Notes: generated from the letters alone by a model not told the origin. A stretch of DNA of 64,000 nt from Actinomycetota bacterium (GCA_963169665.1 CAUJET010000159.1:62001-126000); one strand, 5' to 3'; shown: positions 22,267 to 41,681, counted from the stretch's first letter. Made by a program: numbers and translations.

Positions 22267-23363
22267 TCCCCATCACCACGGTTCGATTCGGACCTGAGGA
22301 AGAGGCACTGGTCCTCGAGGTCCTCCGTTCCGGTCAGCTCGCCCAGGGCGCGTACGTCGAGCGGTTCGAGCGCGAATTCGCAGACCTGCACGGCGTGTCG
22401 CATGCCGTCGCGGTCAACAACGGAACCACCGCACTCGTGGTCGCGATGGAGGCGCTCGGCATCGGTCCCGGCGACGAGGTGATCACGAGCCCGTTCACCT
22501 TCGTCGCCACGCTGAACGCGATCCTCGAGGCCGGCGCGACCGCGCGGTTCGCGGACATCGGAGAGGACTTCAACATCTCCACGGAGGGGATCGAACCCCT
22601 CGTCACCGAGCGGACCAAGGCGATCATGCCCGTCCACCTCTATGGGTACATGGCCGACATGCAGCCGATCATGGACGTCGCGACGCGCCATGGCCTCCGT
22701 GTGGTCGAAGACGCCGCCCAGGCCGTGGCCGCGGAGTATCACGGTCGACGTGCCGGGAGCTACGACGTGGGCTCGTTCTCGCTGTACGCGACCAAGAACC
22801 TGAACACGGGTGAAGGAGGCGTCGTCACCACCAACGACGATGCGGTGGCCGATCGTCTCCGTCTGCTCCGGAACCAGGGCATGCGCCAGCGCTACCAGTA
22901 CGAGGTGGCGGGCCACAACTACCGGCTCACCAACCTCGCCGCAGCCGTCGGGCTGCCACAGCTCGGTCGGATCGAGGAGGTCAGCGACATCCGTCGGCGC
23001 AACGCAGCTGCGCTACGCGACGGGCTGGCGGATATCGACGGGCTCGTGCTGCCGTCGGAGCCCGCCGAGGGTCGCACCCATGTGTACCACCAGTTCACGG
23101 TCCGGGTCACCGGCGACGCGGCCATCTCGCGCGACGGGGCGATCGACGAGCTCACCCGCCGGGGCATCGGCTGCGGCATCTACTACCCGAAGGTCGTGTT
23201 CGACTACGACTGCTACCGCGACCACCCGGGCGTCGTCGCCGCCGACGTGCCGAACGCGTTCCGCGCCGCCTCGGAGGTCATCTCGCTGCCGGTGCACCCG
23301 TACCTCACCGACGCCGACCTGGACGAGATCGTGCGCACGGTGCGGGAGGTGTTCTCCGCATGA
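22263..23363 (+). CDS. wbpE: WbpE-like 3-oxo-uronate aminotransferase
   Basis: A 366-residue DegT-family PLP enzyme. K178 in SLYATKNLNTGEGG is the PLP lysine and D150 in VVEDAAQA holds the pyridine nitrogen. FTFVATLNAI and YRLTNLAAAVGL are typical. Between WbpD- and WbpB-like genes it should transaminate UDP-2-acetamido-3-keto-glucuronate, normally with glutamate as donor. Both ends overlap its neighbours by 4 nt, so the three enzymes are probably made in fixed ratio. Confidence 0.88.
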   Translation: MIPITTVRFGPEEEALVLEVLRSGQLAQGAYVERFEREFADLHGVSHAVAVNNGTTALVVAMEALGIGPGDEVITSPFTFVATLNAILEAGATARFADIGEDFNISTEGIEPLVTERTKAIMPVHLYGYMADMQPIMDVATRHGLRVVEDAAQAVAAEYHGRRAGSYDVGSFSLYATKNLNTGEGGVVTTNDDAVADRLRLLRNQGMRQRYQYEVAGHNYRLTNLAAAVGLPQLGRIEEVSDIRRRNAAALRDGLADIDGLVLPSEPAEGRTHVYHQFTVRVTGDAAISRDGAIDELTRRGIGCGIYYPKVVFDYDCYRDHPGVVAADVPNAFRAASEVISLPVHPYLTDADLDEIVRTVREVFSA

Positions 23364-24322
23364 GCGCGCCGATCCGTCTCGCCGTGGTCGGCGCCGGCAT
23401 CATGGGAACCAACCACGCCCGGGTGGCGCGCCGCCTGCCGGCGTTCGAACTGGTCGCCGTGGTCGATCCCGACGAGGCGAGGGCATCGGCGGTCGCGGGC
23501 GCGGGCGTGCAGTCGTGCGCCTCCATCGACGGCATCGTCGGTGGCATCGATGCCGCGGTGATCGCCGTGCCGACGAAGTTCCACGTCGAGACCGCCGTCG
23601 AACTGGCCCGCAGAGGCGTGCACCTCCTCGTGGAGAAGCCGCTCGCGCCGAGCGTCGCCGAGGCCCAGCAGATCATCGACGCCGCAGCTGCTGCCGGCGT
23701 GGTGCTCACCGTCGGTCACATCGAGCGGTTCAACGCCGCCGTGGTCGAGCTGCCGCGGTTGCTCGACGATCCGATCCACATCGAGGCCTCGCGCATCAGC
23801 CCGTACTCGCCGCGCATCGCCGACGGCGTGATCTTCGACCTCATGATCCACGACATCGACATCGTCTGCTCGCTGGCCGGTGCGGGTGCCGAGGTCACGA
23901 AGGTCTCCGGCGTCGCCCGGGCCATGCGCAGCGCGACCGAGGACATCGCGTCGGTGACGATGCAGTTCTCGACCGGCCTCACTGCGGCGTTCAACACCAG
24001 CCGCCTGGGGCAGCAGAAGATCCGCACCATCGAGATCACCCAGACCGAGAGCACGGTGCAGGCCGACCTCGTCCGTCAGGACGTCACGGTCCACCGGATG
24101 ACCCATCACGAATACTTGAGTGATCAGGGCACCCGCTACCGACAGTCGAGCGTCGTCGAGATCCCATTCCTCGAATCGCGCGGCGAGCCGCTCGCACTCG
24201 AACTCGAGCACTTCGGCGAATGCATCCGCTCCGGCGCGGCGCCGCGGGTGAGCGGTCTCGACGGCCTCCGGGCCATCGAAGTCGCGGTTCGTGCGACTGC
24301 GGCCGTCCGTTCGGCCGGCTGA
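23360..24322 (+). CDS. wbpB: WbpB-like Gfo/Idh/MocA oxidoreductase
   Basis: A 320-residue NAD-dependent dehydrogenase. The Rossmann motif is VVGAGIMGTNHARV (9-22), followed by the EKPLAPS motif with its catalytic Lys, and H in VGHIERFN. HDIDIVCSLAG in the second domain is also typical. It should oxidise C3 of UDP-GlcNAc-uronate to the 3-keto sugar that the WbpE-like enzyme aminates. In Pseudomonas, WbpB recycles NADH with 2-oxoglutarate. A hairpin follows its stop. Confidence 0.87.
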   Translation: MSAPIRLAVVGAGIMGTNHARVARRLPAFELVAVVDPDEARASAVAGAGVQSCASIDGIVGGIDAAVIAVPTKFHVETAVELARRGVHLLVEKPLAPSVAEAQQIIDAAAAAGVVLTVGHIERFNAAVVELPRLLDDPIHIEASRISPYSPRIADGVIFDLMIHDIDIVCSLAGAGAEVTKVSGVARAMRSATEDIASVTMQFSTGLTAAFNTSRLGQQKIRTIEITQTESTVQADLVRQDVTVHRMTHHEYLSDQGTRYRQSSVVEIPFLESRGEPLALELEHFGECIRSGAAPRVSGLDGLRAIEVAVRATAAVRSAG

Positions 24323-24378: not shown

Positions 24379-25593
24379 CTAGATCGACGTCGACGGCGAC
24401 GCGTCGATCAGCATCGTGCCGGCGTACGTGACACCTGCAGCCTGGAATTCGTTGACGATCCGGACCACGTCGCGCTCCAACGAGCGGCCGCTGCGCACTG
24501 CGAGGACGACCAACGGAGCGGTCAGCGCAGCACTGAGGGCTTCCGACGTCCGGAGGACGTCGTCGATGGCGACGATCTCCAGCGGCCGTCCAAGGGTCGT
24601 CCCCGCCTCGGTGAGCTCGTTGCCCAGCTGGCTCAATTCACCCGAGCGCCCGAGACTCACGAGTGCGATGCGGTCGGCGCCAACGGTGGCGTGAGCGGTG
24701 TGAGCGAGCGCGGCGGCCGCCGCGACGAGACTCCGGGGCCGCCCCGAGCCGTTGACGACGGTGGCGATCACGGGTCCGGCGGCCAGCCGTTCGACGTCGC
24801 CTCGGTCGTGGACACGCCGCCGCAGCACCGCACTCACGAGGACGGCGCCAGCGCCCAGCAACAGTCCGAGGACGATGCCGAGGATCCCTCGGATCAAGAT
24901 GCTGTCGGTTCGGCGGGCCTCGGAGTCCTCGATCAGCTCGATGTTCGAGTCGACCGATGCGAGGAAGGTCTCCAAGCCGGCGATCCGCGACTCGAACCCG
25001 AGACGTTCATCGGCCCGTTTCGCTCGTTCGACCAGGAGTCCGTCGGCGAGCGGCGAGGAACGATCGGCGAGCCCGCCGACCTGTTCATCGAGCGCTGCGA
25101 TGCGCTCGTCGAGGTTGGAGATGCGGCGTTCGATACTGGTGATCGTGGCGTCGACGTCTCCACTGACACCGTCGCGGTATTCGCGGAGCAGACGAGTGAG
25201 CGCGAGCTCCATCGCCACGTCCACCGCTCCTTCGGTCGGTCCGGTGACGCTCATGTCGACGGCGAAGATGGGGCCTTGGCTGCCCGGCTTGCCCTCGACC
25301 TCGAGTTCGACGGTGGCATCGACTGCCGAGGACAGCTCGCTGTCGGCAGCCGATTCACCCAGTCGGCCGACCGGCACGAGGATCGGTGAGGTGAGGTCGA
25401 AGGCCTCGCCCTCGCTGACCGCGAGCGCTGGTGAGGTGGTGGAGAAGATCACCTGTGTGTCCCGGCGGTAGCCGCGATCCGCCGACCCTAGGAACAACAG
25501 CGTCACCAGCACCACCGCGCCGGCCACGACCCACCACCGACGGCGGAGTGCGCTCAGGTAGCGATCGAAATCAGGTTCCAGGTCGTCCGACAC
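24379..25593 (-). CDS. Wzz-like polysaccharide co-polymerase with kinase-like tail
   Basis: A 404-residue protein with a transmembrane helix near residues 19-36, an extracellular region with a long coiled coil (SIERRISNLDERIAALDEQVGGLADR and following), and a second transmembrane helix (IRGILGIVLGLLLGAGAVLVSAVL). This is the Wzz/chain-length-determinant layout. The cytoplasmic C-terminus resembles the end of BY-kinase domains (LVVLAVRSGRSLERDVVR then GVTYAGTMLIDA) but lacks a Walker A loop, so it should not bind ATP normally. GTG start, with CAGACT 7 nt upstream. It should control glycan chain length with Wzy. Confidence 0.8.
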   Translation of the reverse strand: MSDDLEPDFDRYLSALRRRWWVVAGAVVLVTLLFLGSADRGYRRDTQVIFSTTSPALAVSEGEAFDLTSPILVPVGRLGESAADSELSSAVDATVELEVEGKPGSQGPIFAVDMSVTGPTEGAVDVAMELALTRLLREYRDGVSGDVDATITSIERRISNLDERIAALDEQVGGLADRSSPLADGLLVERAKRADERLGFESRIAGLETFLASVDSNIELIEDSEARRTDSILIRGILGIVLGLLLGAGAVLVSAVLRRRVHDRGDVERLAAGPVIATVVNGSGRPRSLVAAAAALAHTAHATVGADRIALVSLGRSGELSQLGNELTEAGTTLGRPLEIVAIDDVLRTSEALSAALTAPLVVLAVRSGRSLERDVVRIVNEFQAAGVTYAGTMLIDASPSTSI

Positions 25594-25600
25594 ACGGGCA

Positions 25601-25606
25601 AGTCTG
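25601..25606 (-). promoter_or_regulatory. candidate -10 box of the Wzz-like gene
   Basis: CAGACT on the minus strand, 7 nt before the GTG at 25593. Confidence 0.3.
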
Positions 25607-25667
25607 GCACAGGCCCCCGGCAAGCCCCCGGCTCTCGTGAGGTCGATTCGGAGAAGTCCTCGGTCGG

Positions 25668-25673
25668 TAGGAT
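25668..25673 (+). promoter_or_regulatory. candidate -10 box of the hisF2-wbpG operon
   Basis: TAGGAT. Transcription should start near 25680, leaving a short leader with GAGAGAG before the ATG at 25699. The ATG at 25672 would lie within the box and is therefore disfavoured. Confidence 0.45.
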
Positions 25674-25698
25674 GCCCGCCGAGAGAGATGGTGGTCAG

Positions 25699-26469
25699 AT
25701 GTTCTTACGCCCTCGCGTCATGCCGTGCCTGCTCCTGCGTGGCGCCGGTTTGATCAAGACCGTGGAGTTCGAGGCTCCGAAATACCTCGGCGATCCGATC
25801 AATGCGGTGCGCATCTTCAACGACAAAGAGGTCGACGAGCTCATGTTGCTCGACGTCGAGGCGACGACGTCGGGCAAGGGCATCCAGTTCGACGTCGTGC
25901 AGGAGATCGTGAGCGAGGCCTTCGTTCCGGTGTGCTACGGCGGTGGCGTCCGGACCGTCGACGACGCCACCCGGCTCCTCGCCCTCGGCGTCGAGAAGAT
26001 CTCGTTGAACGCGGCGGCAGTCGCCGACCCGGCGTTGGTGACCGCGCTGTCGGAGAAGTTCGGCGCGTCGACGGTGGTGGTATCGATCGATGCCCGCAAG
26101 AAGCGACGCCGGTACGAGGTGATGGTGAAGCGGGGCAAGGTGGCCACGGGGCTGGAACCCGCCGACTGGGCGGCGCGGGCCGAGGCGCTCGGTGCCGGTG
26201 AGATCTGCATCAACTCGATCGACCGCGACGGGACCATGAAGGGCTACGACATCGAGCTCGTGTCCTCCGTGGCCGCAGCCGTCAAGGTGCCCGTCGTCGC
26301 CATGGGCGGTGCCGGTTCGGTCGACGACCTTCGCGCCGTGGTCGGTCAGGGACATGCGTCGGCGTGCGCCGCCGGAGCGATGTTCGTCTTCCAGGGCAAG
26401 CACCGGGCGGTGCTGATCAGCTTCCCGTCGCAGGACCAGCTCGACGATGCCTTCGGCGTGACGTGGTGA
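25699..26469 (+). CDS. hisF2: HisF2-like ammonia-handling subunit of an amidotransferase
   Basis: A 256-residue TIM-barrel protein related to the HisF cyclase subunit of imidazole glycerol phosphate synthase. Phosphate-binding loops are recognisable (GGGVRTVDD and GGAGSVDDL). The motif that in true HisF reads CLDV, with the catalytic Asp, is CLLL here (PRVMPCLLLRG). The second Asp (VVSIDARKK) is kept. This pattern fits the HisF2 proteins that channel ammonia from HisH2 to WbpG rather than making histidine. WbpG follows after one base. Confidence 0.88.
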   Translation: MFLRPRVMPCLLLRGAGLIKTVEFEAPKYLGDPINAVRIFNDKEVDELMLLDVEATTSGKGIQFDVVQEIVSEAFVPVCYGGGVRTVDDATRLLALGVEKISLNAAAVADPALVTALSEKFGASTVVVSIDARKKRRRYEVMVKRGKVATGLEPADWAARAEALGAGEICINSIDRDGTMKGYDIELVSSVAAAVKVPVVAMGGAGSVDDLRAVVGQGHASACAAGAMFVFQGKHRAVLISFPSQDQLDDAFGVTW

Positions 26470-26470
26470 C

Positions 26471-27619
26471 ATGGTGACGACGGCGCCCACCTCCTACCGG
26501 ATCTGCACGCGATGCGTGATGGACACGTCCGATCCGGACATCACCTTCGACGACCAGGGTCGGTGCAACCACTGCACCGAGTACGACCGGCTCGTGAAGA
26601 TCTTCGTGAGCACCGAGGCCGAGCGACAGTCGCGACTCGATCAACTCGTCGCACGCATCGCCGCCGCGGGCAAGGGTCGCGAGTACGACTGCGTCATCGG
26701 TCTGTCCGGCGGCGTCGACAGCTCGTACGTTGCCTACCTGGTCGCGCGACAGCTCGGTCTCCGGCCGCTCGCCGTCCACCTCGACAACGGCTGGAATTCG
26801 AACCTCGCTGTCAGCAACATCGAACGGATCGTCAACCACCTGTCGATCGACCTGTTCACCGAGGTACTCGACTGGGACGAGTTCCGCGACCTCCAGCTCG
26901 CGTTCCTGCGGGCCTCGACGCCCGACTCGGAGATCCCGACCGACCATGCCATCACGGCCGTGCTCATGGACCAGGCGCGCCGCCATCGCATCCGCTACAT
27001 CATCGGCGGATCGAACATCCGCACCGAGGCGATCATGCCGGCGGCATGGTCGCAGGGCATCCGCGACTGGCGGTACATCTCGTCGGTGCAGCGTCGGTTC
27101 GGCACGCAGTCGCTGACGACGTTCCCGCACTTCTCGATCTTCCAGTTCGCGCGCCGCAAACTGAGTGGGCAGCGGTGGGTGAACATCCTCGACTACGTCG
27201 ACTATCGCAAGTCGGAGGTCGTGCCCCTGCTCGAGCGTGAACTCGGCTGGGAGCCGTACGGCACCAAGCACGGTGAGTCCGTGTACACGCGCTTCTTCCA
27301 GAACTACATCCTCCCGACGAAGTTCGGCTACGACAAGCGCCGTGGGCACCTCGCGTCCCTCGTGTGCGCCGGTGAGATCTCGCGCGACGAAGCGCTCGCC
27401 ACGCTCGAACAGCCGGCGGCCACCGCCGAGCAGAACGAGCAGGACCGGCTGTTCGTCGCGAAGAAGCTCGGCGTCACGCCCGACGAGTTCGACGAGATCA
27501 TGGCCCTGCCGAAGAAGACGATGTACGACTACCCGACCTACGAGACGGCGTGGTGGCACGAGGCGATGCGCGCCGTGTACCGAGCGCCGCGCCTGCTGCG
27601 TACCCGCAGGGCGAGATGA
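26471..27619 (+). CDS. wbpG: WbpG-like N-acetyl sugar amidotransferase, copy 1
   Basis: A 382-residue PP-loop ATPase. SGGVDSS (79-85) binds ATP, and an N-terminal zinc-finger-like C-x2-C pair set lies at C12, C15, C32 and C35. With HisH2 and HisF2, WbpG converts an N-acetyl group of a UDP-uronate to an acetamidino group. Other family segments are VHLDNGWNSNLAV, EIPTDHAI and HGESVYTRFFQNYILP. A GT4 gene overlaps its stop (ATGA), followed by hisH2. A second copy lies at 34460-35599. Confidence 0.9.
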   Translation: MVTTAPTSYRICTRCVMDTSDPDITFDDQGRCNHCTEYDRLVKIFVSTEAERQSRLDQLVARIAAAGKGREYDCVIGLSGGVDSSYVAYLVARQLGLRPLAVHLDNGWNSNLAVSNIERIVNHLSIDLFTEVLDWDEFRDLQLAFLRASTPDSEIPTDHAITAVLMDQARRHRIRYIIGGSNIRTEAIMPAAWSQGIRDWRYISSVQRRFGTQSLTTFPHFSIFQFARRKLSGQRWVNILDYVDYRKSEVVPLLERELGWEPYGTKHGESVYTRFFQNYILPTKFGYDKRRGHLASLVCAGEISRDEALATLEQPAATAEQNEQDRLFVAKKLGVTPDEFDEIMALPKKTMYDYPTYETAWWHEAMRAVYRAPRLLRTRRAR

Positions 27620-28947
27620 GCGAGGCGCCCCGTGTGCTGGTGATGATGACCAGCACGATGACCAACGAGCCTCGTGTCCGCCGCGAAGCGTGGTCGCTGC
27701 ACCGGCTCGGTGTCGACGTGGTTGCGCTCGGCACGTGTGCCGACGGCACCGAGGCCAGGTCGCAGCCAGCGGCCGACATGCACATCCGTCGCATCGATCT
27801 GTGGGACGTCCGCGCCGTGCGCTGGGTGAAGCGCCGCCGTGCAGGCCGAGCGGCAGCGGGCGAACCGGCAGTTCCGGCAGCGTCGACGGGTCCGGCCGTG
27901 GCTGCGCCGGCGTCCGACGCAACACCGACGGCGACCCGCGATGTCGTCGGTGACGTTCGCAACCTCGTGCACTGGCTCGCTGCTGCGCTCCAGTTCGGGT
28001 GGCACGCATCGCGCGTGCAGACCGACGTCTACCACCCGCACGATCTGCCACCCGTGGTGCCGGCTCTCGTCCTCGGGCGCCTGCGCGGGCGGCCCGTGGT
28101 GTACGAGTCGCACGAGTACTGGGCCTCGAAGTTCCCCGACCAGCCGATCAGCCGGTGGGTTGGCGGTCGGATCGAACGTGCGGCGTGTCGCCGTGCGGCC
28201 GCCGTCTTCGTGGTCAACGACACCATCGCCGATCGGATGGTCGCCGACTTCGGCATCGACCGACCCGCCGTGGTCCCCAACGTCCCGATGGTCGCCACCG
28301 TCGACGCGGTGCATCGACGCGCCGATGCCGATCCGATCGAGGTGCTGTACCACGGCATCGTCGTGCCCGGTCGCGGCGTGGAAGTGCTCGTCGATGCCGT
28401 GGCGCAGATGCGCGCCGACGCGCGTCTGGTCGTTCGCGGGCCCGGTGAGCTGCGGCCGTGGGTACTCGCTCGGGCCGCGGAGTTGGGCATCTCGGACCGC
28501 GTCGACGTCGCCGATCCGGTCCCGCTCGATCGCCTCGTCGAGACCGCGTCGTCGTCCGACATCGGGGTCCTGCCGTTCGAGGCCAAGCTGGGCTACGAGG
28601 TGTCGCTGCCGAACAAGCTGTTCGAGTACATGGCGGCGGGGCTGGCCATCGTGGCGTCGGACATGCCCGAGCTGCGCCGGGTGGTCACCTCGGTCGACAA
28701 CGGGATCGTCGTCGAGCCGTCGTCGGTGGCGAGCCTCGCTGCGGCCCTCGACCGGTTGGCGGGCGATCGTGCCCTGCTCGACGCCCAGCGCGAGCGATCC
28801 CTGTCGGCGGCACAGCGTCTCTACACTTGGGATGTGCAACAGCAGTCCCTCGTCGACGCCTACCGACCGCTCCTGCGAACCGGATCCGCGGAGGTCGGCG
28901 CCCCCGCACGATCGGGAGCCTCGGGAGCCTCGGGAGCCTCGTCGTGA
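27616..28947 (+). CDS. glycosyltransferase family 4, partner of WbpG copy 1
   Basis: A 443-residue GT-B enzyme. The N-terminal domain opens with VLVMMTSTMTNEPRVRREA and contains HPHDLPPVV and VYESHEYW. The C-terminal nucleotide-sugar domain has LYHGIVVPGRGVEVLV and LPNKLFEYMAAGLAIVASDMPE. A low-complexity Ala/Pro/Thr insert lies at residues 85-115. The C-terminus ends in GAS repeats encoded by a 9-bp tandem repeat. Set between wbpG and hisH2 with 4-nt overlaps, it probably transfers the amidino sugar. It is similar in plan to the GT4 beside WbpG copy 2. Confidence 0.85.
   Translation: MSEAPRVLVMMTSTMTNEPRVRREAWSLHRLGVDVVALGTCADGTEARSQPAADMHIRRIDLWDVRAVRWVKRRRAGRAAAGEPAVPAASTGPAVAAPASDATPTATRDVVGDVRNLVHWLAAALQFGWHASRVQTDVYHPHDLPPVVPALVLGRLRGRPVVYESHEYWASKFPDQPISRWVGGRIERAACRRAAAVFVVNDTIADRMVADFGIDRPAVVPNVPMVATVDAVHRRADADPIEVLYHGIVVPGRGVEVLVDAVAQMRADARLVVRGPGELRPWVLARAAELGISDRVDVADPVPLDRLVETASSSDIGVLPFEAKLGYEVSLPNKLFEYMAAGLAIVASDMPELRRVVTSVDNGIVVEPSSVASLAAALDRLAGDRALLDAQRERSLSAAQRLYTWDVQQQSLVDAYRPLLRTGSAEVGAPARSGASGASGASS
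28912..28941 (+). repeat. 9-bp tandem repeat in the 3' end of a GT4 gene
   Basis: TCGGGAGCC at 28912-28920, 28921-28929 and 28930-28938, then TCG. Each copy adds three residues (Gly-Ala-Ser) to the protein end, so copy-number change keeps frame. Confidence 0.85.
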
Positions 28948-29567
28948 TCGCCATCGTCGACTACGGCATCGGCAACCTCGGGTCGGTGCTCAACATGATG
29001 AAGCGCATCGGCGCCGAGGCCGAGATCACCGCCGACCCCGATGTCGTCGCCGCGGCCGACAAGGTCATCCTCCCTGGGGTCGGCGCGTTCGACACCGGCA
29101 TGAAGAACCTCGCCGATCGTGGGCTCATCCCGGCGCTCGAGCACGCTGCTCGCGAACGGCAGGTGCCGGTGCTCGGTTTCTGCCTCGGCATGCAGCTCCT
29201 GGTGGGCGGGAGCGAAGAGGGCGATCGCGAGGGGCTCAACTGGATCCCCGGACGGTGCGAGCGTCTGCGGCCCGAGGGATCGCTCCGCGTGCCGCAGATG
29301 GGGTGGAACCGGTTGTCGGCCACCCGCGAGCACCCGTTGCTCGAGGGGATGGACGCACGCGCCCGCTTCTACTTCGTGCACTCGTTCCAGGTGGTGTGCG
29401 ACCGCCCCGAGGACGTCGTCGCCCGCACCGACTACGGCGGCCCGGTGACAGCCGTCATCGCTCGCGACAACGTGTGGGCCACCCAGTTCCACCCCGAGAA
29501 GAGCCACAAGTACGGCATGGCGCTCCTGCGCAACTTCGTGTCGCTCCCGCTACCCGCCGCCGTCTGA
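28944..29567 (+). CDS. hisH2: HisH2-like glutamine amidotransferase
   Basis: A 207-residue class I glutaminase that releases ammonia from glutamine. The catalytic triad is C80 (GFCLGMQ), H183 and E185 (QFHPEKS). The start VIAIVDYGIGNLGSV and ILPGVGAFDTGM are HisH-like. In this operon it should serve the amidination reaction with HisF2 and WbpG rather than histidine synthesis. The GTG overlaps the GT4 stop by 4 nt, and its 3' end overlaps the convergent gene by 18 bp. Confidence 0.9.
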   Translation: MIAIVDYGIGNLGSVLNMMKRIGAEAEITADPDVVAAADKVILPGVGAFDTGMKNLADRGLIPALEHAARERQVPVLGFCLGMQLLVGGSEEGDREGLNWIPGRCERLRPEGSLRVPQMGWNRLSATREHPLLEGMDARARFYFVHSFQVVCDRPEDVVARTDYGGPVTAVIARDNVWATQFHPEKSHKYGMALLRNFVSLPLPAAV

Positions 29568-30914
29568 CGGGCCGCCCAGCACCCGGCTCATCGCCGCGAT
29601 GGTGGTGGTCGCGGCAGCGGGGGCCACCGTCCAGTCGACCCCGAATCGCTCGAGGAAGTCACCCGCCTCGTAGCCACCCTCGATGAGCACGGTCGGACCG
29701 GGCAGGTAGCCGACGGTGCGGTCGCCGTAGCCACCGGGGACGAGCGTGCTCCTCCCCCCGGCGGCGGCGAGCGCCGGCGCGAGGAGATCCGAGGTGGGTT
29801 CACCCGACAGCACGAGCAGGGTCAGTTCGTCGCCGAGCCGGATCGAGCGCACCGTCGACTCCAGTCCCGCCGGTGATCCGGGGTACAGCGCATCGGTGGG
29901 GATGACCTCCGCACGGACGTCGAGGGTCAGGCGGCTCGACCTGCCAGTGGTCTGCAGGGCCGACACCTGATCGGCGAGCCGGCCGGCCCAGGCGGTCCAG
30001 GTGGGCAGATCGGACGAACGGAACCCGGGCCCGAGGTTGAGGAGGTTCTCGAGCCGAGAGGCGCGCGAGTGCCCGCGCCACCACGACGTGATGGCCGGGC
30101 GCATGTCGCCCGCGAAACCCTGGACGAACACGACGGGCAGATCGGGCCGACCGAGGTCGCGGCGCAGGCGGTCGCGAACGACGCCGGGGTACTCGGCCGA
30201 GATCTGGTGGGTCGCGGGCAACTCGGACGGATGGCAGGCGAGGCTCCACAGGACGCCCACGCACGCGGGTCGCGTCGCTGCGGCGGGACCGCCGGCGCCG
30301 TCGGGCCGGGGGTCGGCGTGGAAGCGGACGAGATGGGCATCGTGTGCGGCCGCCGGTGCACGTGAGGGTCGCCGCCAGAGGCGGCGCGACACCAACGGTG
30401 CTCCGTCGGAGCGGTCGATCACCCACGCGCGTCGTCGCCGACCGGTGGTGGCGCGGGTGGGAGCGGACGTATGTGTCGACGACGTCGCCGGCACCGACGA
30501 CAGCGAACGACGCACCGACGCCGCAATCGCCGTCACCGTCCGGTCGACGTACGCGGTGTCGACGGCACCGAGGGCGGCGATCGCCGGTTCGGTCGCCGGG
30601 GCGAAGTGGGTGTGCGACGCGCAGATCGTGATCTCGTCGGCCGCGACGAGACCCTGCAGTTCGGTGGCGAGCCGCCCGCCGAGCACGCCGCCGTACAACA
30701 GGTCGACGGCGACGACGAGGTGCCGGCGGTCGCTCGTGCGCACGAACACATGGTTGGCCTCGAGCCGGGAGTGCACGCCGTCGGAGACCCGGTGACGACC
30801 GGAGAAGCCGGCCAGCACCAGCGGCTCGTCCGGGGTGATGTCGACGACGCCGAACCAGGCACCGGACGAGTCACCGAACTCGGCGTCGTCGCCCGTGCGC
30901 GACGGCTCAGCCAC
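29550..30914 (-). CDS. neutral ceramidase-like hydrolase domain protein
   Basis: A 454-residue protein whose N-terminal half resembles neutral/alkaline non-lysosomal ceramidases: an early VVDITP and AGFSGR segment, a strand ending VVAVDLLYGG, then CASHTHFAP, where SHTH (100-103) would be a metal-binding motif. YGDRTVGYLP and EGGYEAG near the C-terminus also fit. No signal peptide is visible, unlike secreted ceramidases. It overlaps the AAC(3)-like gene by 8 nt. In a polysaccharide locus it might deacylate a sugar or lipid. Function uncertain. Confidence 0.65.
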   Translation of the reverse strand: MAEPSRTGDDAEFGDSSGAWFGVVDITPDEPLVLAGFSGRHRVSDGVHSRLEANHVFVRTSDRRHLVVAVDLLYGGVLGGRLATELQGLVAADEITICASHTHFAPATEPAIAALGAVDTAYVDRTVTAIAASVRRSLSSVPATSSTHTSAPTRATTGRRRRAWVIDRSDGAPLVSRRLWRRPSRAPAAAHDAHLVRFHADPRPDGAGGPAAATRPACVGVLWSLACHPSELPATHQISAEYPGVVRDRLRRDLGRPDLPVVFVQGFAGDMRPAITSWWRGHSRASRLENLLNLGPGFRSSDLPTWTAWAGRLADQVSALQTTGRSSRLTLDVRAEVIPTDALYPGSPAGLESTVRSIRLGDELTLLVLSGEPTSDLLAPALAAAGGRSTLVPGGYGDRTVGYLPGPTVLIEGGYEAGDFLERFGVDWTVAPAAATTTIAAMSRVLGGPSDGGG

Positions 30915-31791
30915 GTCGGAGTCGAGCGGGGAGCCGCCTGGCCAGGTGCACGGCCCGGCGCGCCACGTACCCGGGGACGTCGCGGTTGTTGTAGGTGCGC
31001 TGGAAGCGGCACGACACGCACAACGGGTCGTCGCACAGCGATGCCGTCGGGTCGGCCTCGATCACCTGGCGGTCGACCGCGTACAGGGCGGCACTGCGAC
31101 CGGCGAGGGAGTACGCACTGCCCACGTCGCCTGCGTGCAACACGCCGGCGCGGAGGTAGTGGCGGTAGAGGTTGCCGAACCCACGGCTGCACCCGGGTTC
31201 GTCGGTGCGTTCGAACCAGTGCTCCGCGCCGTCGGCGCCGGTGTAGTACGCACCGAGGCCGGGGCGGCGGCGGGTCCGGTGCACGAGCCCGAGCTCGAGC
31301 TGGGCGAAGTCGACGGTGCTGAACCCAGGGCCCGATTCGGTGCATCCGACGAGCATCATCAGCGCGTCGCGCTCGATCAGCTCCCCGACGAAGCCGAAGC
31401 AGGCGTCGCGCTCGGTGTGCGCTGCCGCGAGGCGAGCGGCGTCGGCGCCGACGGCGACGAAGCTATGGGTCGGATGGCTGCTGCGAACGGCACCTGGCGT
31501 CTGCAGGACCATGTTGGCGAGGCCGCCGATGATGGCCGGCGACGACGGGGTGAAGTGCGGCGGCGACGCTCGCCGGCGGCCGACGCCACTGTGGGCCAGG
31601 CACATGATCGTGCCGGTCGGGCCGACGACCTCGCGGAGGGAGGCGATCAGCGCGGCACCGTTGTTCGGCTCCCAGCTGCCCATCGACCGGAGCGCCGCGC
31701 GCACGAGCACCGTGTCGCCGTCGCGCAGTCCGAGGGCGCCGAGGTCGGCCACGAGTCGCGGCGGTGCCATCGGTGAGGGAGGCTGGCCCAT
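30907..31791 (-). CDS. AAC(3)-family N-acetyltransferase
   Basis: A 294-residue member of the AAC(3) acetyl-CoA family, named for aminoglycoside 3-N-acetyltransferases, but many homologues acetylate amino sugars of surface glycans. SSHPTHSFVAVG (104-115) with its conserved His is the clearest signature. Early GDTVLVRAALRSMG and GPTGTIMC also fit. A C-terminal Cys cluster (C253, C258, C261) is unusual and may bind metal. I chose the ATG at 31791, 7 nt after a TAGTCT box. A GTG at 31836 would add 15 residues. Confidence 0.8.
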   Translation of the reverse strand: MGQPPSPMAPPRLVADLGALGLRDGDTVLVRAALRSMGSWEPNNGAALIASLREVVGPTGTIMCLAHSGVGRRRASPPHFTPSSPAIIGGLANMVLQTPGAVRSSHPTHSFVAVGADAARLAAAHTERDACFGFVGELIERDALMMLVGCTESGPGFSTVDFAQLELGLVHRTRRRPGLGAYYTGADGAEHWFERTDEPGCSRGFGNLYRHYLRAGVLHAGDVGSAYSLAGRSAALYAVDRQVIEADPTASLCDDPLCVSCRFQRTYNNRDVPGYVARRAVHLARRLPARLRRG

Positions 31792-31798
31792 GGGGATG

Positions 31799-31804
31799 AG
31801 ACTA
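31799..31804 (-). promoter_or_regulatory. candidate leaderless -10 box of the AAC(3)-like gene
   Basis: TAGTCT on the minus strand, 7 nt before the ATG at 31791. Confidence 0.45.
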
Positions 31805-31860
31805 CTGGCGGGCGACACGCGAACCCGTTCGGTCACGCCGTGTCGGATGGGCGACCGGGG

Positions 31861-33297
31861 TCAACGGGCGGACGATCGTGACCGCCACGTGCGCCGCAGC
31901 AGCGGCAGTGCGGCGGGGACGAGACACGCGGTCGCGACCGCAGAGGCGCCCGCACGGCCCAACGGCACGGCGATGGCGGCGAGCCCGGCCATCGCCCCGG
32001 CGACGCCGACGAGCCGGAGCGTCGTCCGGCGCGGGACGCGGAGCGCCCGGTATCGCCACAACAGCGCTCCGATGGCGGCGGTGTAGAGCGTGTAGTGGAC
32101 GCTGAACGCGATCCCGAGTCCGTCGAGTTCTGCGATCAGCAACCCGACCGTGGTGAGCGCCACGTAGATCGCGGCCGAGACCCCTTCGGTGGCGAGGCGG
32201 GTGGCGCTGCCCATCGACGCGAGCAACGCAGTCGCGAGCACGGAGCCGGTGAGCCGCAGGAAGTCGCCGGCGAGCTGCAACCGCACGAGCTGCTCGGCGG
32301 GCCGGAACTCGTCGGTGTACAGGATCGGCATGAGCAGCGGCAGCAGGGCGGCGATGAGGAATCCGATGGGTGCGAACACCATCGCGACGAGGTCGAGCTG
32401 TTCGGTCACCACGCGCGAGAACGCAGCCCGATCGTCGGTGGTGCGGGCCACGCGAGGGAAGAAGTCCTGGGAGATGGTGGTCGTGATGACGACGAGGTAG
32501 CCCTCGGCGAGGACGGCGGCCGCGCGGTAGTACCCCGTCCCGTCCTCGCCGATCAGACGCGTGGTGAGCACCGGCACGGTGAGCACGGCCGCCGAGCCGA
32601 TCACCGAGCTGAGCGTGACCGGCAGACCGAATGCCATCAGCTCACGGCGACCCGACATCGGAAGGGCGGGATCGATCGGCACCTCGCGCTGCACGACCGA
32701 GCGCGTGACGGCGAAGACGAGCGTGATGCTGACCAGAGCGCCCGGGATGATGCCGTCGCGGTCGATGGCGAGGAAGAAGAGCAGGTTCACCACCGGGCTG
32801 ATGAAGCACGTCATGGCCGCCACGCGCGCCGTCGAGCGCACCCGGTGGTGGGCGACGAGGATGCCGATCTCGACGCTGTTCATGGCCCACACCGCGCCGG
32901 CGGCGGTGGCTGCGACGAAACCCATCGTGGTCGTGCCCTCGCCCAGGAGGACCTCACCGACGAAGGGCGACAGGGCCGCGGCGATGCAGACGACGCAGGC
33001 ACCCACGAGCAGGCTGTTGCGCCGCGCTGCCCGCACCAGCCCCGAGATCCGGGCCGGATCGTCCGCCGCTGCCCCCACCTTGGCCACGAGTGCGGTGTTG
33101 GCGCCCAATCCGGCGAGCACGCCGACCACACCGGTGTAGGCGATGACCAGACCCATCTGACCCACGCCGGCCGGGGCGAGCATGACCGCGGCGATCTTCT
33201 GCGACAGGACCCCGGCCACGATGGTGAGACCGGACGCGCTCCCGAGGACCGCCAGCGCCCGCAACGGAGACAGGGCCACCGGCGCCGGCGAGCTCAT
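31861..33297 (-). CDS. Wzx-like lipid-linked oligosaccharide flippase
   Basis: A 478-residue protein of the polysaccharide flippase (MOP/MATE-like) group with about 14 hydrophobic helices. The start LRALAVLGSASGLTIVAGVLSQKIAAVMLAPAGVG is typical of Wzx-type translocases. It should flip the undecaprenyl-diphosphate-linked repeat unit across the membrane. The ATG overlaps the upstream GT4 stop by 4 nt, so it shares a message with wzy, wbpG copy 2 and a GT4. Confidence 0.88.
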   Translation of the reverse strand: MSSPAPVALSPLRALAVLGSASGLTIVAGVLSQKIAAVMLAPAGVGQMGLVIAYTGVVGVLAGLGANTALVAKVGAAADDPARISGLVRAARRNSLLVGACVVCIAAALSPFVGEVLLGEGTTTMGFVAATAAGAVWAMNSVEIGILVAHHRVRSTARVAAMTCFISPVVNLLFFLAIDRDGIIPGALVSITLVFAVTRSVVQREVPIDPALPMSGRRELMAFGLPVTLSSVIGSAAVLTVPVLTTRLIGEDGTGYYRAAAVLAEGYLVVITTTISQDFFPRVARTTDDRAAFSRVVTEQLDLVAMVFAPIGFLIAALLPLLMPILYTDEFRPAEQLVRLQLAGDFLRLTGSVLATALLASMGSATRLATEGVSAAIYVALTTVGLLIAELDGLGIAFSVHYTLYTAAIGALLWRYRALRVPRRTTLRLVGVAGAMAGLAAIAVPLGRAGASAVATACLVPAALPLLRRTWRSRSSAR

Positions 33298-34463
33298 CGT
33301 CCGAGCCTGGAACCGATCGACCGGTACAGGTCGACCAGGGGCACCGACTCGTCCTCCCACGACAACCGCGAGCGGGCCTCGCGCGCTCGTGCTGCGGCGG
33401 CGGCGATGGCGTCGGCATCGAGCGAGCGGATGAGGGCCGCCACGGCGCCTGGTTCGACCTCGACCGTCCACCCCGCACCGGTGTCGGTGATGAAGCGGGA
33501 CATCTCCGGAAACGCGCTCGCGATGGTGGGGATGCCGGCGCTGGTGTACTCCATCAGCTTGTTCGGCAGCGACAGGTGGTAGCTCACGCACACGTTCTCG
33601 ATGAGGCAGATACCGACGTCGGCGGACGCCGTCATGGCCAGCACCTCGCCCGGTGGCACCGCGGCGACGAAATGGATGTTGCTGCGCTGCGTCGACGCGG
33701 CACGGATGGTGGGCTCGAGGTCGCCGTAGCCCATGAAAACCATGTGGCGATCGGTCGGCATGTCGACGAAGACATCGAGCAGCATCTCGGCAGCGCGCCC
33801 GCGGTGGATGCTCCCCTGGTAGAGGAAGACCAGATCTGCGTCGGGAATGGACAGCAGCGACCGGAACGCGTCGGTGCGCTCCACCGGATGGGACGTGCGG
33901 TAGGGGACATTGCGGACCACCACGACGCGCGCCGACGGATGGTGTGCGCGGTACCACTCGCCGATCGATTCGTTCACCACCACGACCGCGGTGCAGAACC
34001 TCACGAAGGACCACTCGAGCAGGCGTCCGATCCGCCGTCGCAACGCAGACGAACCGACCGTCTCGGTTTCGAGTTCGTGGGTGTCGTAGATCACCTCGGC
34101 CCGAGTGACGACCTTGGCCGCCATGGCGACCGGGAGCACCGGGAGCGAATGGGGATTGAGGAGCACCGGCCGGGCCCGCACGATCGCCACGAACGCTCGA
34201 ACCTGCCACTCGAGCAGGCGCACGACCGAGCCGATGGGCCCGGCCAGCCGGTCGCCGATGGGGGTGCGGAGACGGCGGACACGTCGATCCGCATCGACGT
34301 CCTCGCGCTCGGCCAGACCCGGCTCCCAGCGGGCGAGGATGAGCACGTCGTCGACGGCGCCGCTGGCGAGTGCCGTGGCCGTCTCCTTCAGCATCCGACT
34401 CTCGAAGCGGAACGTGCTGGGGTAGAAGTGCACGTTCGTCCTGGGTCGGACCGTTCGTGTCAT
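33294..34463 (-). CDS. glycosyltransferase family 4, partner of WbpG copy 2
   Basis: A 389-residue GT-B enzyme. VIYDTHELETETVG in the N-terminal domain parallels VYESHEYW of the GT4 beside WbpG copy 1. The donor domain carries YQGSIHRGRAAEMLL and LPNKLMEYTSAGIPTIAS. It overlaps wbpG copy 2 upstream and wzx downstream by ATGA. It probably adds the sugar amidated by the adjacent WbpG copy, which is inference from position. Confidence 0.85.
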   Translation of the reverse strand: MTRTVRPRTNVHFYPSTFRFESRMLKETATALASGAVDDVLILARWEPGLAEREDVDADRRVRRLRTPIGDRLAGPIGSVVRLLEWQVRAFVAIVRARPVLLNPHSLPVLPVAMAAKVVTRAEVIYDTHELETETVGSSALRRRIGRLLEWSFVRFCTAVVVVNESIGEWYRAHHPSARVVVVRNVPYRTSHPVERTDAFRSLLSIPDADLVFLYQGSIHRGRAAEMLLDVFVDMPTDRHMVFMGYGDLEPTIRAASTQRSNIHFVAAVPPGEVLAMTASADVGICLIENVCVSYHLSLPNKLMEYTSAGIPTIASAFPEMSRFITDTGAGWTVEVEPGAVAALIRSLDADAIAAAAARAREARSRLSWEDESVPLVDLYRSIGSRLGR

Positions 34464-35599
34464 CGAAGGGCGCGACGGCGGGCGAACGCAGCGAAGCTGC
34501 CGAACGCGCGCCGCATCCACTCGCCGTTCGGATAGTCCTGCGCCCGTCGCGGCGCAGCGCTCATGATCGCGTCGAACTCGTGGCTCGTGTACCCGAGCTT
34601 CTTGATGACGTACTCGCGATCGCGAGCCACCTCGTCTGCAGCGTAGGGCGGTACGGCGAGCTCGGCGAGCGCCTGATCGCGGGTGATCTGCCCCGACAGC
34701 ACGAGGTTGGCCAGGTGTGCCTTGCGCTTGTCGATGCCGAACTTCTCCGGGAGGATGAACCCCTGGAAGAACTTGGTGTACACCGACTCGTAGTGCTTTC
34801 CGCCGTAGTCGCGCCAGTCGAGCTCGTCGGCGAGCATCGCCTTCACCTCGGCCTTGTGGTACGGCTCGAAATTCAAGACGTTCACGAACTTGTAGCCCTG
34901 CACCCCGAGCATGAGTCCGAAGCGAACGTAGCTCAGCTTCGGGAAGCTCCGGAGGGGCACGCTGCCGAACCGCTTGTGCACCGCCTTGATGAGGCGCAGG
35001 TCGTAGGCGTCGTACATCCACGACTCCGGGAGTACCGCTTCGGTGACGAGGTTGCTCCCGGTGAGCACATGCTTGATCTTCATCGCGCGTGCGGTCTGGA
35101 ACAGCGTGGCGACGATGGAGTGATCGGTGGGGATCTCGGCGTTCGCGATGCCTGCTTCGAGGAAGCTGCGCTGCAGGTCGCGGAACTCCTCCCAGTCGAG
35201 CACGTTGGTCTGGAGATCGATGTCGAGTCGCTCGAGCGTCTGCTGGATGTTCTGCACCGCCAGCTCGCTGTTCCACCCGTTGTCGACGTGGATCGCCAGG
35301 GGGCGCAACCCGTACTTCTTCTTGGCGACGTAGGCGACGTAGGTGCTGTCGACGCCACCGCTGATGCCCACGATCGAGTCATACGGCTTGCCCTCACCTG
35401 CCCGCTTGATCTCCTCGATCAGCTCGGCGAGTCGGGCCTGGCCGGCGGCGTCGTAGCGCAACTCGGTCGCGATGCGCTCGGCGTAGCGATGGCAGAAGTT
35501 GCAGACGCCGTCGGCGTCGAAGACGATGTCCGGAACCGTGGTGTCGAGCACGCACGACGTGCAGATGCGCAGGGGCGGGGTGGGTGGGAACGAGGACAC
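34460..35599 (-). CDS. wbpG: WbpG-like N-acetyl sugar amidotransferase, copy 2
   Basis: A 379-residue PP-loop ATPase paralogous to 26471-27619: SGGVDST (80-86), Cys pairs at C13, C16, C33 and C36, VHVDNGWNSELAV, EIPTDHSIV and HYESVYTKFFQGFILP. All features expected for activity are kept, so it does not look degenerate. No second hisH2 or hisF2 lies beside it, so it would have to share the single pair or draw ammonia elsewhere. The GTG start follows the wzy stop by 3 nt. Confidence 0.9.
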   Translation of the reverse strand: MSSFPPTPPLRICTSCVLDTTVPDIVFDADGVCNFCHRYAERIATELRYDAAGQARLAELIEEIKRAGEGKPYDSIVGISGGVDSTYVAYVAKKKYGLRPLAIHVDNGWNSELAVQNIQQTLERLDIDLQTNVLDWEEFRDLQRSFLEAGIANAEIPTDHSIVATLFQTARAMKIKHVLTGSNLVTEAVLPESWMYDAYDLRLIKAVHKRFGSVPLRSFPKLSYVRFGLMLGVQGYKFVNVLNFEPYHKAEVKAMLADELDWRDYGGKHYESVYTKFFQGFILPEKFGIDKRKAHLANLVLSGQITRDQALAELAVPPYAADEVARDREYVIKKLGYTSHEFDAIMSAAPRRAQDYPNGEWMRRAFGSFAAFARRRALR

Positions 35600-35602
35600 G
35601 CG

Positions 35603-36928
35603 TCAGACCGTCACGAGGTTGGAGGAGACCCGTACAGTACGGCGTCGGCGCCTGCTGGCCAACCCGATGATCAGGAACACGCCGGCCAGGAGCCAGATCG
35701 ATCCGGGTCCGAAGGGATCGAGCATGCCGGAGAATCCCGTCGACGACAGACCCACCACTTGGTAGACGACGATGGCGCGCAATGCCACCGTCGCGGTGGT
35801 GCGCGGTGCCGTCGCGATCAGGTGCTGCAGCACGCAGACCAGCGCGCCCACCACGAACGCACCGACGAGCGCGCCGTACCAGCCGAAGTTCACCCACAGC
35901 TCGCCGAGGTATCCCGCGTTCGCGCTGCCGCTCGTGATCGCGCCCGTGCCGTAGTACTCGAGATAGATGATGTTGTCGATCGCCACCGGGCCGTCCGGGA
36001 GGTACTTGCTGACATACGGGAGGGTCCGGCCCATGAAGAAGATCCCGTGCTCGCCGGTGTAGTCGACATAGCGGAACACGACCTCGCTCGGGAGGTAGAA
36101 GATCCGCCGTCCCAACGCGAGCAGCACGTCGCCGGTGCGCTGCAGGTCGAAGCCGACCGAGCTCGACGTGACGAAGATGGGGAAGCCGATGCCGAGTGCA
36201 CCGAGGGAGGCGACGCGGCGTGGGGTCAGGTCCCTGCCCCGACCGAACAGTGCCCCGAGGAAGAGCGTGATGAGCAATGCGCCGACCGAGGACTTCTCGA
36301 GCGTGGCGGCGGCGAAGAATGCACCGACCGCAAAGGTGAGCAGGAACAGGAGCCACCATCTGACCCGTCGTCGCCGGCGCGCTTCGAGATACGTGCTGAT
36401 CGCGAGGAACGGCAGGACGATGCTGCGAGTGAGCGAGAAGACGTAGCGCACCTGACCGGGAAGCAGCTTCAACGCCTGCTCGCGGGCCAGATCGAGATCG
36501 GTGCTGGCGGAGTCGCCGCGGAGCAGCACCAGGAGAGGCACTTCCGGCACGACCACGAGGTACAGGGCGAAGATGCCGAGCGCGCCCGCGACCGCGACAG
36601 GGAGGAGCCAACTCGCGGTCGACGAGGCGGGGAGCTCGGTACGAGGCACCTCGACCCTGCCCACGAGATGGCGTGCCACCACCGTGCCGAGCGCGGTCAT
36701 CAGCATGCCGGCCGACAGCAGCGCGAGGTAGGGGTCGCGGGCCGTGCCGGGATGGCCGTCGTACACCCACGGCGCACCGACGAGGACGAAGGCGCCGAAC
36801 GACGACAGCAGCACGCCGGGAAGGGTCAACGTCGTGATGCGGAACGCCGTCGGGGCGAGGCGGACGAGCAGCGCGAGGCAGATGAGCGTGGCGACGACGA
36901 CCACGGTGGCGAACAGGAACGGCGGCAT
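35603..36928 (-). CDS. Wzy-like polysaccharide polymerase
   Basis: A 441-residue integral membrane protein with about 11-12 helices and a large loop near residues 255-320 (GRRIFYLPSEVVFRYVDYTGEHGIFFMGRTLPYVSKYLP), the plan of O-antigen/capsule polymerases that join repeat units at the outer face of the membrane. Sequence conservation in Wzy is always low, so the call rests on topology and on the wzx, wbpG and GT4 genes downstream. A 13-codon ORF ends 3 nt before its ATG and may couple translation. Confidence 0.75.
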   Translation of the reverse strand: MPPFLFATVVVVATLICLALLVRLAPTAFRITTLTLPGVLLSSFGAFVLVGAPWVYDGHPGTARDPYLALLSAGMLMTALGTVVARHLVGRVEVPRTELPASSTASWLLPVAVAGALGIFALYLVVVPEVPLLVLLRGDSASTDLDLAREQALKLLPGQVRYVFSLTRSIVLPFLAISTYLEARRRRRVRWWLLFLLTFAVGAFFAAATLEKSSVGALLITLFLGALFGRGRDLTPRRVASLGALGIGFPIFVTSSSVGFDLQRTGDVLLALGRRIFYLPSEVVFRYVDYTGEHGIFFMGRTLPYVSKYLPDGPVAIDNIIYLEYYGTGAITSGSANAGYLGELWVNFGWYGALVGAFVVGALVCVLQHLIATAPRTTATVALRAIVVYQVVGLSSTGFSGMLDPFGPGSIWLLAGVFLIIGLASRRRRRTVRVSSNLVTV

Positions 36929-37052: not shown

Positions 37053-38291
37053 ATGCGGGTGCGGCGGCTGGTGCTCTTGACGCAATACTTCGAACCCGAG
37101 GTGGGTGCGCCGCAGGTCCGTCTCGCCGCGGTGGTGCAAGAACTCACTCGTCGTGGCGTCGAGGTCGAGGTGGTCACCGCTCTTCCCAACCATCCGGAAG
37201 GGCGAATCCGCGAGGACTATCGCCGCCGTTTGATGGTCACCGAGCACCGCCACGGAGCCAGGGTCGTGCGCGTGTGGATGTTGGCGGCGAGCGGTGCCGG
37301 CATCCGACGGATGCTGAGCTACATCTCGTTCGCGATCACCAGTGTCGTCGGTCTGCTCCGCTGTCGGCGCCCCGATGTGGTGCTGGTGGAGTCGCCACCG
37401 CCGTTCCTCTTCGCGACCGCGCGTCTGGTGGGTCTGTTCTGGCGCCGCCCGATCGTGTTCAACGTCGCCGATCTGTGGCCGGACTCGGCCGTCAAGCTGG
37501 GCCTGCTCGACGACGGTCCGCTCCTGCGCTGCATGTACTGGTTCGAGTCGTGGGTGTATCGGCGCAGCGCCAACGTGATTGCCGTCACCGAGGGTCTGCG
37601 CGACGTGCTGCTCGATGACAAGCACGTCCCGGCCGAGAAGGTGAGCTTCCTGCCGAACGGTGTCGACGTCCAACTGTTCCGGCATCGCTCACCGGACGAG
37701 GAACTGAGAACCCGGTATGCGCCGGCGGGACAGCAGATCGTCGTGTACGCAGGCACGGTCGGTCTGGCGCACGGCGTGGAGGTCGCGGTCGACGCGATGG
37801 CGCTCGTGGCACGACGCCACCCCGAGGCGGTGCTGTTGATCGTCGGAGCCGGCTCAGGGCTCGCGAGTGTGCAGGAACGGATCATCGCATCGGGGGTGTC
37901 GAACGTGGTGCTGGTGCCGCCGGTCCCGATCGAGACCGTCGCCCGGATCTACACCATTGCGGTGGCCGGCCTGTCCACGCTCAAGGACAACCCACTGTTC
38001 GAGGGCACCCGACCGTCGAAGGTCTTCCCCGTCCTCGCGGCGGAGCTCCCCGTGGTGTACAGCGGTGCCGGTGAGGGCGCCCGCCTCATCGCCGATCACG
38101 GCGTCGGGATCGTCTGCCCTCCCGAGGACGCCGCCGCTCTCGCCGCGGCCATCGAGCGCGTGTTGGAACACCCGGACGAGGCTCGCGAGATGGGGCGCCG
38201 CGGCCGGGCGCTCGTCGTCGACGCCTTCTCCTGGTCGGCGCTCGTCGACTCGTGGATCAGCCAGATGGGGTGGCAGACCGAGGCTTCGTGA
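37053..38291 (+). CDS. glycosyltransferase family 4, WbuB-like
   Basis: A 412-residue GT-B enzyme resembling WbuB/WcaI: LTQYFEPEVGAPQVRLAAVVQEL at the start, TALPNHPEGRI, VESPPPFLFATA, FNVADLWPDSAVKLG and LPNGVD, then the donor-site run GTRPSKVFPVLAAELPVVYSG. WbuB homologues transfer FucNAc-type 6-deoxy amino sugars, which would suit a PglF-derived donor, though the actual sugar is not known. Its 3' end overlaps the convergent methyltransferase gene by 35 bp. Confidence 0.9.
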   Translation: MRVRRLVLLTQYFEPEVGAPQVRLAAVVQELTRRGVEVEVVTALPNHPEGRIREDYRRRLMVTEHRHGARVVRVWMLAASGAGIRRMLSYISFAITSVVGLLRCRRPDVVLVESPPPFLFATARLVGLFWRRPIVFNVADLWPDSAVKLGLLDDGPLLRCMYWFESWVYRRSANVIAVTEGLRDVLLDDKHVPAEKVSFLPNGVDVQLFRHRSPDEELRTRYAPAGQQIVVYAGTVGLAHGVEVAVDAMALVARRHPEAVLLIVGAGSGLASVQERIIASGVSNVVLVPPVPIETVARIYTIAVAGLSTLKDNPLFEGTRPSKVFPVLAAELPVVYSGAGEGARLIADHGVGIVCPPEDAAALAAAIERVLEHPDEAREMGRRGRALVVDAFSWSALVDSWISQMGWQTEAS

Positions 38292-38970
38292 GCACCCCGA
38301 GCAGGTGGCCGCGCAGCGGCGGCAGCGCGGCGGCGATCGGGTACACGGTGGCGGTCGCCCGGCCGAGGCGCCTCGCAAGCGGGGGGACGACCGTGATCGA
38401 TCGCCACTCGGCGGCGAAGCCCGGGAACATCGCCTCCACCTGTCGTCTGGGGAACGGACGCAGCTCGCGGTTGCGCGGGTTGCGGTAGCGAAGGTCGTAC
38501 CAGAGCACTCGCCCGCCGGGTGCGAGCACCCGGTCGACCTCGCGGGCGATGGCGCGGCACGTGGTGTCGGCGCCCACGGAGGAGAACACGGTGAACAGCG
38601 TGACCAGATCGAACGTCCGGTCGCCGAAGGGCAGCGCGACGCCGTCAGCGCAGACGAGGCCGACCGCGACGCCCGGCGATGCGTGCCGCAGGCGTTCGAA
38701 CAGGAGGTCGACCGCGATACGAGTGACGTCAGGCGAGGCTGCGTCGAGCTCGGGCGTCAGCGAGGTGTTGCCGCCCGAGCCCAGGTCGAGGATCGACATC
38801 TTCCCAGAGCGCTGCGAGATGGTGCCCATCGCGAGCATGTCGCGCACACACCGCACGCGTTCGCTCAGGATCGCGCGGTTGCCGGGGTTCGACTCGCTCC
38901 ATCGTTCGATGGTGGCGTCGGTGAGCAGGGTGCCGTACACCTGCTCGAGCCGCTCGCGCTCGGACGGCAT
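38257..38970 (-). CDS. class I SAM-dependent methyltransferase
   Basis: A 237-residue methyltransferase: ILDLGSGGNTS (motif I, SAM binding), IAVDLLFERL with the acidic residue after strand 2, ADGVALPFGDRTFDLVTLF and EVDRVLAPGGRVLWYDLR. The substrate is unknown. In this locus it probably methylates a sugar hydroxyl or the glycan end. The ATG overlaps the upstream dehydrogenase stop by one base (TGATG). Confidence 0.82.
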   Translation of the reverse strand: MPSERERLEQVYGTLLTDATIERWSESNPGNRAILSERVRCVRDMLAMGTISQRSGKMSILDLGSGGNTSLTPELDAASPDVTRIAVDLLFERLRHASPGVAVGLVCADGVALPFGDRTFDLVTLFTVFSSVGADTTCRAIAREVDRVLAPGGRVLWYDLRYRNPRNRELRPFPRRQVEAMFPGFAAEWRSITVVPPLARRLGRATATVYPIAAALPPLRGHLLGVLTKPRSATPSG

Positions 38971-41599: not shown

Positions 41600-41669
41600 C
41601 GCAGGATTCGTCGATCGAACGGGCACGCACAGAAGGTACTGCTGCCGGGGTGGGCCCGGAGTGCACGGA

Positions 41670-41675
41670 TAGTGT
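41670..41675 (+). promoter_or_regulatory. candidate leaderless -10 box
   Basis: TAGTGT, 6 nt before the ATG at 41682. Confidence 0.4.
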
Positions 41676-41681
41676 CTGACC

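Follow-up and report, generated by a model that had tools for sequence, protein, structure and literature searches.

The window, a 64,000-nucleotide stretch of DNA from an Actinomycetota genome that was analysed at its full length, encodes exactly two intact N-acetyl sugar amidotransferases of the WbpG/WbuX type (WbpG1 and WbpG2). These are the only two in the genome, and they share it with a single dedicated HisF2/HisH2 pair. With a probability of about 0.6, I read this as one HisH2-HisF2 module common to two old, diverged amidotransferases, each of which would modify a different acetamido sugar within a single Wzx/Wzy-type polysaccharide. A preliminary description of this DNA had reported two WbpG and one pair, and genome-wide profile counts bear it out. 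Its inference that WbpG2 has no ammonia-supplying partner is not supported, since loci with two or more WbpG to a single dedicated HisH recur elsewhere and Campylobacter provides a precedent in gene content (PMC12102941).

Two amidotransferases and one glutaminase-channel pair

The genes for amidination and their neighbouring glycosyltransferases are as follows.

25672-26469, plus strand: HisF2, ammonia-channel partner (NF038364, 341.7 bits, cut-off 310; Leu in place of D11, D130 kept)
26471-27619, plus strand: WbpG1, N-acetyl sugar amidotransferase (TIGR03573; CTRC...GRCNHC, SGGVDS, loop PYGTKHGES)
27550-28947, plus strand: GT4 glycosyltransferase, real start probably after WbpG1
28944-29567, plus strand: HisH2 glutaminase (TIGR01855, 232.4 bits against a cut-off of 105.4; motifs GFCLGM and QFHPEKS)
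33294-34469 (end approximate), minus strand: GT4b glycosyltransferase, directly after WbpG2
34460-35599, minus strand: WbpG2, N-acetyl sugar amidotransferase (TIGR03573; CTSC...GVCNFC, SGGVDS, canonical loop DYGGKHYES)

Against the TIGR03573 WbuX model the two WbpG score 277.6 and 276.5 bits (cut-off 203.2). From the solved Legionella enzyme, the hallmarks of the family are a zinc-binding tetracysteine, CXXC...[GN]XCXXC, and an SGGXDS PP-loop (PMC10607449). Both motifs are full in WbpG1 and in WbpG2, and the second copy is intact, as had been proposed. Of 59 positions that hardly vary among 57 HisFH-adjacent WbpG, WbpG2 keeps 58 and WbpG1 keeps 55. Three of the four departures in WbpG1 fall within PYGTKHGES, a loop that reads DYGGKHYES in nearly all relatives, and they could mean changed or weak activity. 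Judged by their residues, both enzymes look active.

The two copies are 49% identical, and a tree that makes them sisters is rejected (p-AU 0.0115), which rules out a recent duplication. WbpG1 groups with the HisFH-linked WbpG of a myxobacterial locus (L024; support 99/95) and WbpG2 is placed, with moderate support, in a different branch. A joint clade of the window's extra WbpG with those of L024 and an Achromobacter locus (L019) is not shown by the tree, nor is it rejected (p-AU 0.318). WbpG1 and WbpG2 are thus old, diverged copies and not sisters. The putative substrate segment near the pocket was no more divergent than in WbpG pairs matched for overall identity (mean difference about 0), and an argument for different substrates from this variable segment was dropped.

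The WbpG2-GT4b pair is found in three phyla: a comparison of 111 WbpG frames showed an extra WbpG followed, at a gap of 4 bases, by a GT4b in L019 and L024 alone, and the GT4 there is 38-39% identical to the window's GT4b. This conservation bears on the possibility that WbpG2 is redundant, or that one of the two enzymes is inactive, so that only one acetamidino group would be made. The altered loop of WbpG1 and the membership of both copies in one family at 49% identity lend that possibility some weight, as does the fact that surface-glycan clusters of this kind are often shuffled. I consider it unlikely, given two intact frames with full PP-loop and zinc motifs, copies that are old and not sisters, and a WbpG2-GT4b pair kept in three phyla.

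HisF2 passes NF038364, the NCBIfam model for AglZ/HisF2 acetamidino modification. Aligned with the HisF encoded on another contig of the genome (C222), it reads PCLLL against PCLDV, and thus the catalytic aspartate D11 is gone whereas the second, D130, is kept. The same Leu/Asp state is present in 95 HisF sequences aligned from WbpG loci, and the loss of D11 is a feature of nearly all WbpG-linked HisF2. This pattern fits a barrel retained as ammonia conduit and docking partner. HisH2 starts with a GTG at 28944, overlapping the 3' end of the upstream GT4 gene, and its motifs comprise the cysteine and the His/Glu of the triad.

That HisF2 and HisH2 serve histidine synthesis is a reading that their homology to HisF and HisH alone would permit. 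Strong PF00977 matches besides HisF2 are confined to C222, which has two (290 and 229 bits) with a HisH adjoining; a match on C150 is marginal. HisH itself has two strong matches genome-wide (window and C222) and one weak, sub-cut-off match on C48. Since the HisH of C222 adjoins two genes of the HisA/HisF family and its HisF keeps the cyclase aspartate, I read C222 as the canonical hisH-hisA-hisF set, apart from the window pair, which is therefore not needed for histidine. Together with the lost D11 and the acetamidino-specific model, this leaves a histidine role for the window genes very improbable indeed. The preliminary description had held that the amidination module is distinct from histidine synthesis and that a genome with no other hisH/hisF would refute this; C222 supplies those other genes. 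The C-terminal half of a HisF lies at the end of contig C38 (L126, 11870-12163). I rejected it as a second HisF2, as it resembles the canonical HisF C-terminal half fused to a foreign frame, probably through a chimeric assembly join or contamination. In a draft of 230 contigs that is 98% complete, an assembly gap could hide part of the dedicated pair.

An alternative is that WbpG2 relies on free ammonia in solution or on the histidine HisF/HisH of C222. In its favour, some WbpG loci (L020, L057, L079 and L085) have no HisH/HisF within the stretch read. The HisF of C222 is nevertheless of the histidine type with its cyclase residues kept, and WbpG2 retains almost every residue that is conserved among HisFH-linked WbpG, which makes another ammonia source quite improbable and favours supply from HisH2-HisF2.

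The diacetamido-sugar pathway

The preliminary description named WbpB, WbpE and WbpD homologues and a WbpA/WecC-like dehydrogenase, and profile searches show all four to be real. The first three are in the order wbpD-wbpE-wbpB across 21709-24322, and a Wzz-like gene of opposite orientation parts them from hisF2-wbpG1-GT4-hisH2.

21709-22266, plus strand: WbpD-type hexapeptide-repeat N-acetyltransferase, first of the three (best family NeuD/PglD, below cut-off)
22173-23363, plus strand: WbpE-type DegT aminotransferase (PDB relatives include WbpE 3nu7/3nyu)
23360-24322, plus strand: WbpB-type Gfo/Idh dehydrogenase, nearest to UDP-GlcNAc 3-dehydrogenase (NF040723, 217.5 bits, below the cut-off of 450)
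38257-39129, minus strand: methyltransferase, adjoining the dehydrogenase as in locus L172 of the same family
38970-40268, minus strand: WbpA/WecC-like UDP-N-acetylhexosamine 6-dehydrogenase (TIGR03026 over cut-off; WecC and archaeal ManNAc-DH families below theirs)

The WbpE-type frame overlaps WbpD, and so its real start is probably downstream of 22173; perosamine synthase outscores 3nu7/3nyu as its PDB relative.

As had been noted from the window, no WbpI-type 2-epimerase is visible: the PF02350 profile, positive in 11 of 14 control genomes, has no match in the 98%-complete draft genome. Because no 2-epimerase was found anywhere in this draft, the natural reading is that the WbpB/E/D product keeps the gluco configuration, in line with the earlier proposal. 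Such products have precedents in marine O-antigens, which contain derivatives of 2,3-diamino-2,3-dideoxyglucuronic acid and 2-acetimidoyl uronic acids (PMC3210612), and in the WbpA/B/E/D route of Porphyromonas to 2,3-di-N-acetylglucuronic acid (PMC7468200). A Campylobacter-like nonulosonic acid pathway was ruled out, as NeuB (PF03102, positive in 9 of 14 controls) likewise has no match in the draft genome.

Host and type of locus

The window covers positions 62001-126000 of contig C159. The source genome comprises 5.84 Mb and carries 11 WhiB genes, which confirms an actinobacterial host; among the 14 control genomes only Corynebacterium has matches to the WhiB family. The remaining genes of the locus are listed here.

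16001-16600, minus strand: PglC/WcaJ-type initiating sugar-phosphate transferase
16594-17790, minus strand: ArnB/PseC-like 4-aminotransferase, which might make a second amino sugar
17908-19722, plus strand: PglF/WbpM-like UDP-HexNAc 4,6-dehydratase
24379-25623, minus strand: Wzz-like chain-length determinant, weak (TIGR01005/TIGR03017, below cut-off)
29550-30914, minus strand: ceramidase-like protein, role unassigned (PF04734, E=0.0048, below the gathering score)
30907-31836, minus strand: AAC(3)-like (PF02522) N-acetyltransferase
31861-33285, minus strand: Wzx flippase, start approximate
35603-36928, minus strand: Wzy-like oligosaccharide repeat polymerase (TIGR04370, 32.6 bits, below the cut-off of 40)
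40265-41875, minus strand: Wzy_C O-antigen ligase-type protein

With a PglC-type transferase, Wzz-like, Wzx and Wzy-like proteins, an O-antigen-ligase-type protein and several GT4 enzymes around the amidination genes, this is a Wzx/Wzy-type surface polysaccharide locus, in which WbpG2 lies between the Wzy-like polymerase and GT4b. The PF02522 protein could acetylate an amino sugar. A link between it and WbpG2 by co-occurrence was tried and given up, with a single weak match among loci outside the source genome. Besides Wzx/Wzy the locus seems to include an ABC-type export gene, to judge by a Wzt-type ABC ATPase (42740-44305) and the large DUF7657/DUF7654 protein (44874-47828) next to it.

Several WbpG per HisH

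Two or more WbpG occur within the stretch in 12 of 79 named WbpG loci. The 12 genomes concerned have 2-4 WbpG each, and 11 of them have at most two HisH in all (five of them have a single one; in G759 three matches were counted as two genes, one of them split), while the remaining genome has three. In genus g355, of the same family as the source genome, six genomes (L161-L166, that is, G704, G748, G619, G712, G675 and G756) share the order WbpG-HisH-HisF2-WbpG'-HisF', and the four whose HisH were counted have two each. Since the arrangement recurs in the named loci, in g355, in L019/L024 and in the gene content of Campylobacter, it is nothing out of the ordinary for a WbpG to lack a HisH/HisF neighbour of its own. 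Each WbpG of g355 does have its own HisF-like partner, however, and thus the sharing of HisF is not universal.

Other arrangements were seen alongside these. The HisF' of g355 keeps D11 and has Glu at D130, possibly as a different HisF subfamily, and the paired WbpG' is about 436-443 residues long. L172 (G635, same family) has one WbpG with HisF2/HisH2; its Wzt, initiating transferase and methyltransferase, its ArnB-like aminotransferase (65%) and its dehydrogenase (71%) are shared with the window. Elsewhere in the order to which the source genome belongs, about eleven genomes (L093-L103) show a WbuX-like match of roughly 100 bits in open frames of 1400-3089 residues, which may encode a large multidomain protein that includes an amidotransferase-like domain.

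Proposed mechanism

From gene content and conservation I infer the following scheme. HisH2 would split glutamine, and the ammonia released would pass through the HisF2 barrel, its cyclase role lost, to the WbpG-type PP-loop enzymes, where ATP would activate an N-acetyl group whose oxygen is then replaced by NH. As the hisF2-wbpG1 operon adjoins wbpD-wbpE-wbpB, the substrate of WbpG1 is most likely their product (with the 6-dehydrogenase), a UDP-GlcNAc(3NAc)A-type sugar in the gluco configuration. WbpG2 would draw on the same HisH2-HisF2 and most likely modify another acetamido group, on a different sugar of the repeat unit such as a 4-acetamido or 2-acetamido sugar; a second amino-sugar route is present in the dehydratase and the ArnB/PseC-like aminotransferase. 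The polysaccharide would then carry one or more acetamidino sugars, and double amidination is plausible.

Both WbpG might instead act on the C2 and C3 acetamido groups of the same diacetamido sugar to give a doubly amidinated residue. One diacetamido-sugar pathway is evident, and both positions are chemically precedented in C2 acetimidoyl uronic acids and in 3-acetamidino sugars made by WbpG (PMC3210612, PMC10607449). However, the PglF-like dehydratase and the ArnB/PseC-like aminotransferase could make a second acetamido sugar, and the acetamidino glycans encountered in the literature carry one amidino group per sugar. Action on one sugar therefore seems improbable, and a second sugar is the favoured target of WbpG2.

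Acetamidino groups give surface sugars a positive charge, and the locus and its relatives suggest that several amidotransferases can be supplied by one glutaminase-channel pair. The fullest version of the proposal, two different acetamidino modifications on an actinobacterial polysaccharide, one of them on a gluco 2,3-diacetamido uronic acid, installed by separate WbpG with shared HisH2-HisF2 ammonia, is offered only tentatively and is more doubtful than the reading given at the outset.

Distribution

At E<1e-40, a phylum-wide sample of 396 genomes contained WbpG in 9, with two copies in the source genome only. Two WbpG are thus rare in the phylum, but the case is not unique: WbpG occurs in 21 of 200 genomes of the family, and several g355 members have two to five copies. 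In the window's own genus, the four other members examined contained no WbpG; the cluster is accessory and was probably in part acquired horizontally. Acetamidino groups were encountered in literature on proteobacterial and Flavobacterium glycans, and a search of a limited set of papers for an actinobacterial case found none. The locus is a rare phyletic occurrence of an already known arrangement and is not exceptional.

Comparison with known systems

Pseudomonas aeruginosa O5, with WbpG-HisH-HisF and WbpA/B/D/E/I, resembles the window in having dedicated HisH and HisF beside WbpB/E/D-type genes and a 6-dehydrogenase. It differs in that the window has two WbpG and an actinobacterial host, and that no WbpI was found in the source genome, so that a manno product is not expected. 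Campylobacter jejuni has the same gene content as the window, with a single hisH/hisF pair alongside two N-acetyl sugar amidotransferases. Its PseA (Cj1316c), HisH (Cj1315c) and HisF (Cj1314c) are adjacent by locus tag and PtmG is Cj1324 (PMC12102941), although that study itself takes HisH/HisF as histidine genes. PseA and PtmG (for the function of PtmG, see PMC3766260) act on nonulosonic acids, whereas the genome of the window has no NeuB match. In g355 two WbpG accompany one HisH, as in the window, but there the second WbpG has a HisF-like protein of its own, with D11 kept and D130 changed to E. Finally, Achromobacter marplatensis (L019) and a Myxococcota MAG (L024) have, like the window, two WbpG, one HisH-HisF, WbpD/WbpE, a PglF-like protein and the WbpG-GT4b pair, although the HisFH-adjacent WbpG of A. 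marplatensis, unlike that of the window, sits in another branch of the WbpG tree.
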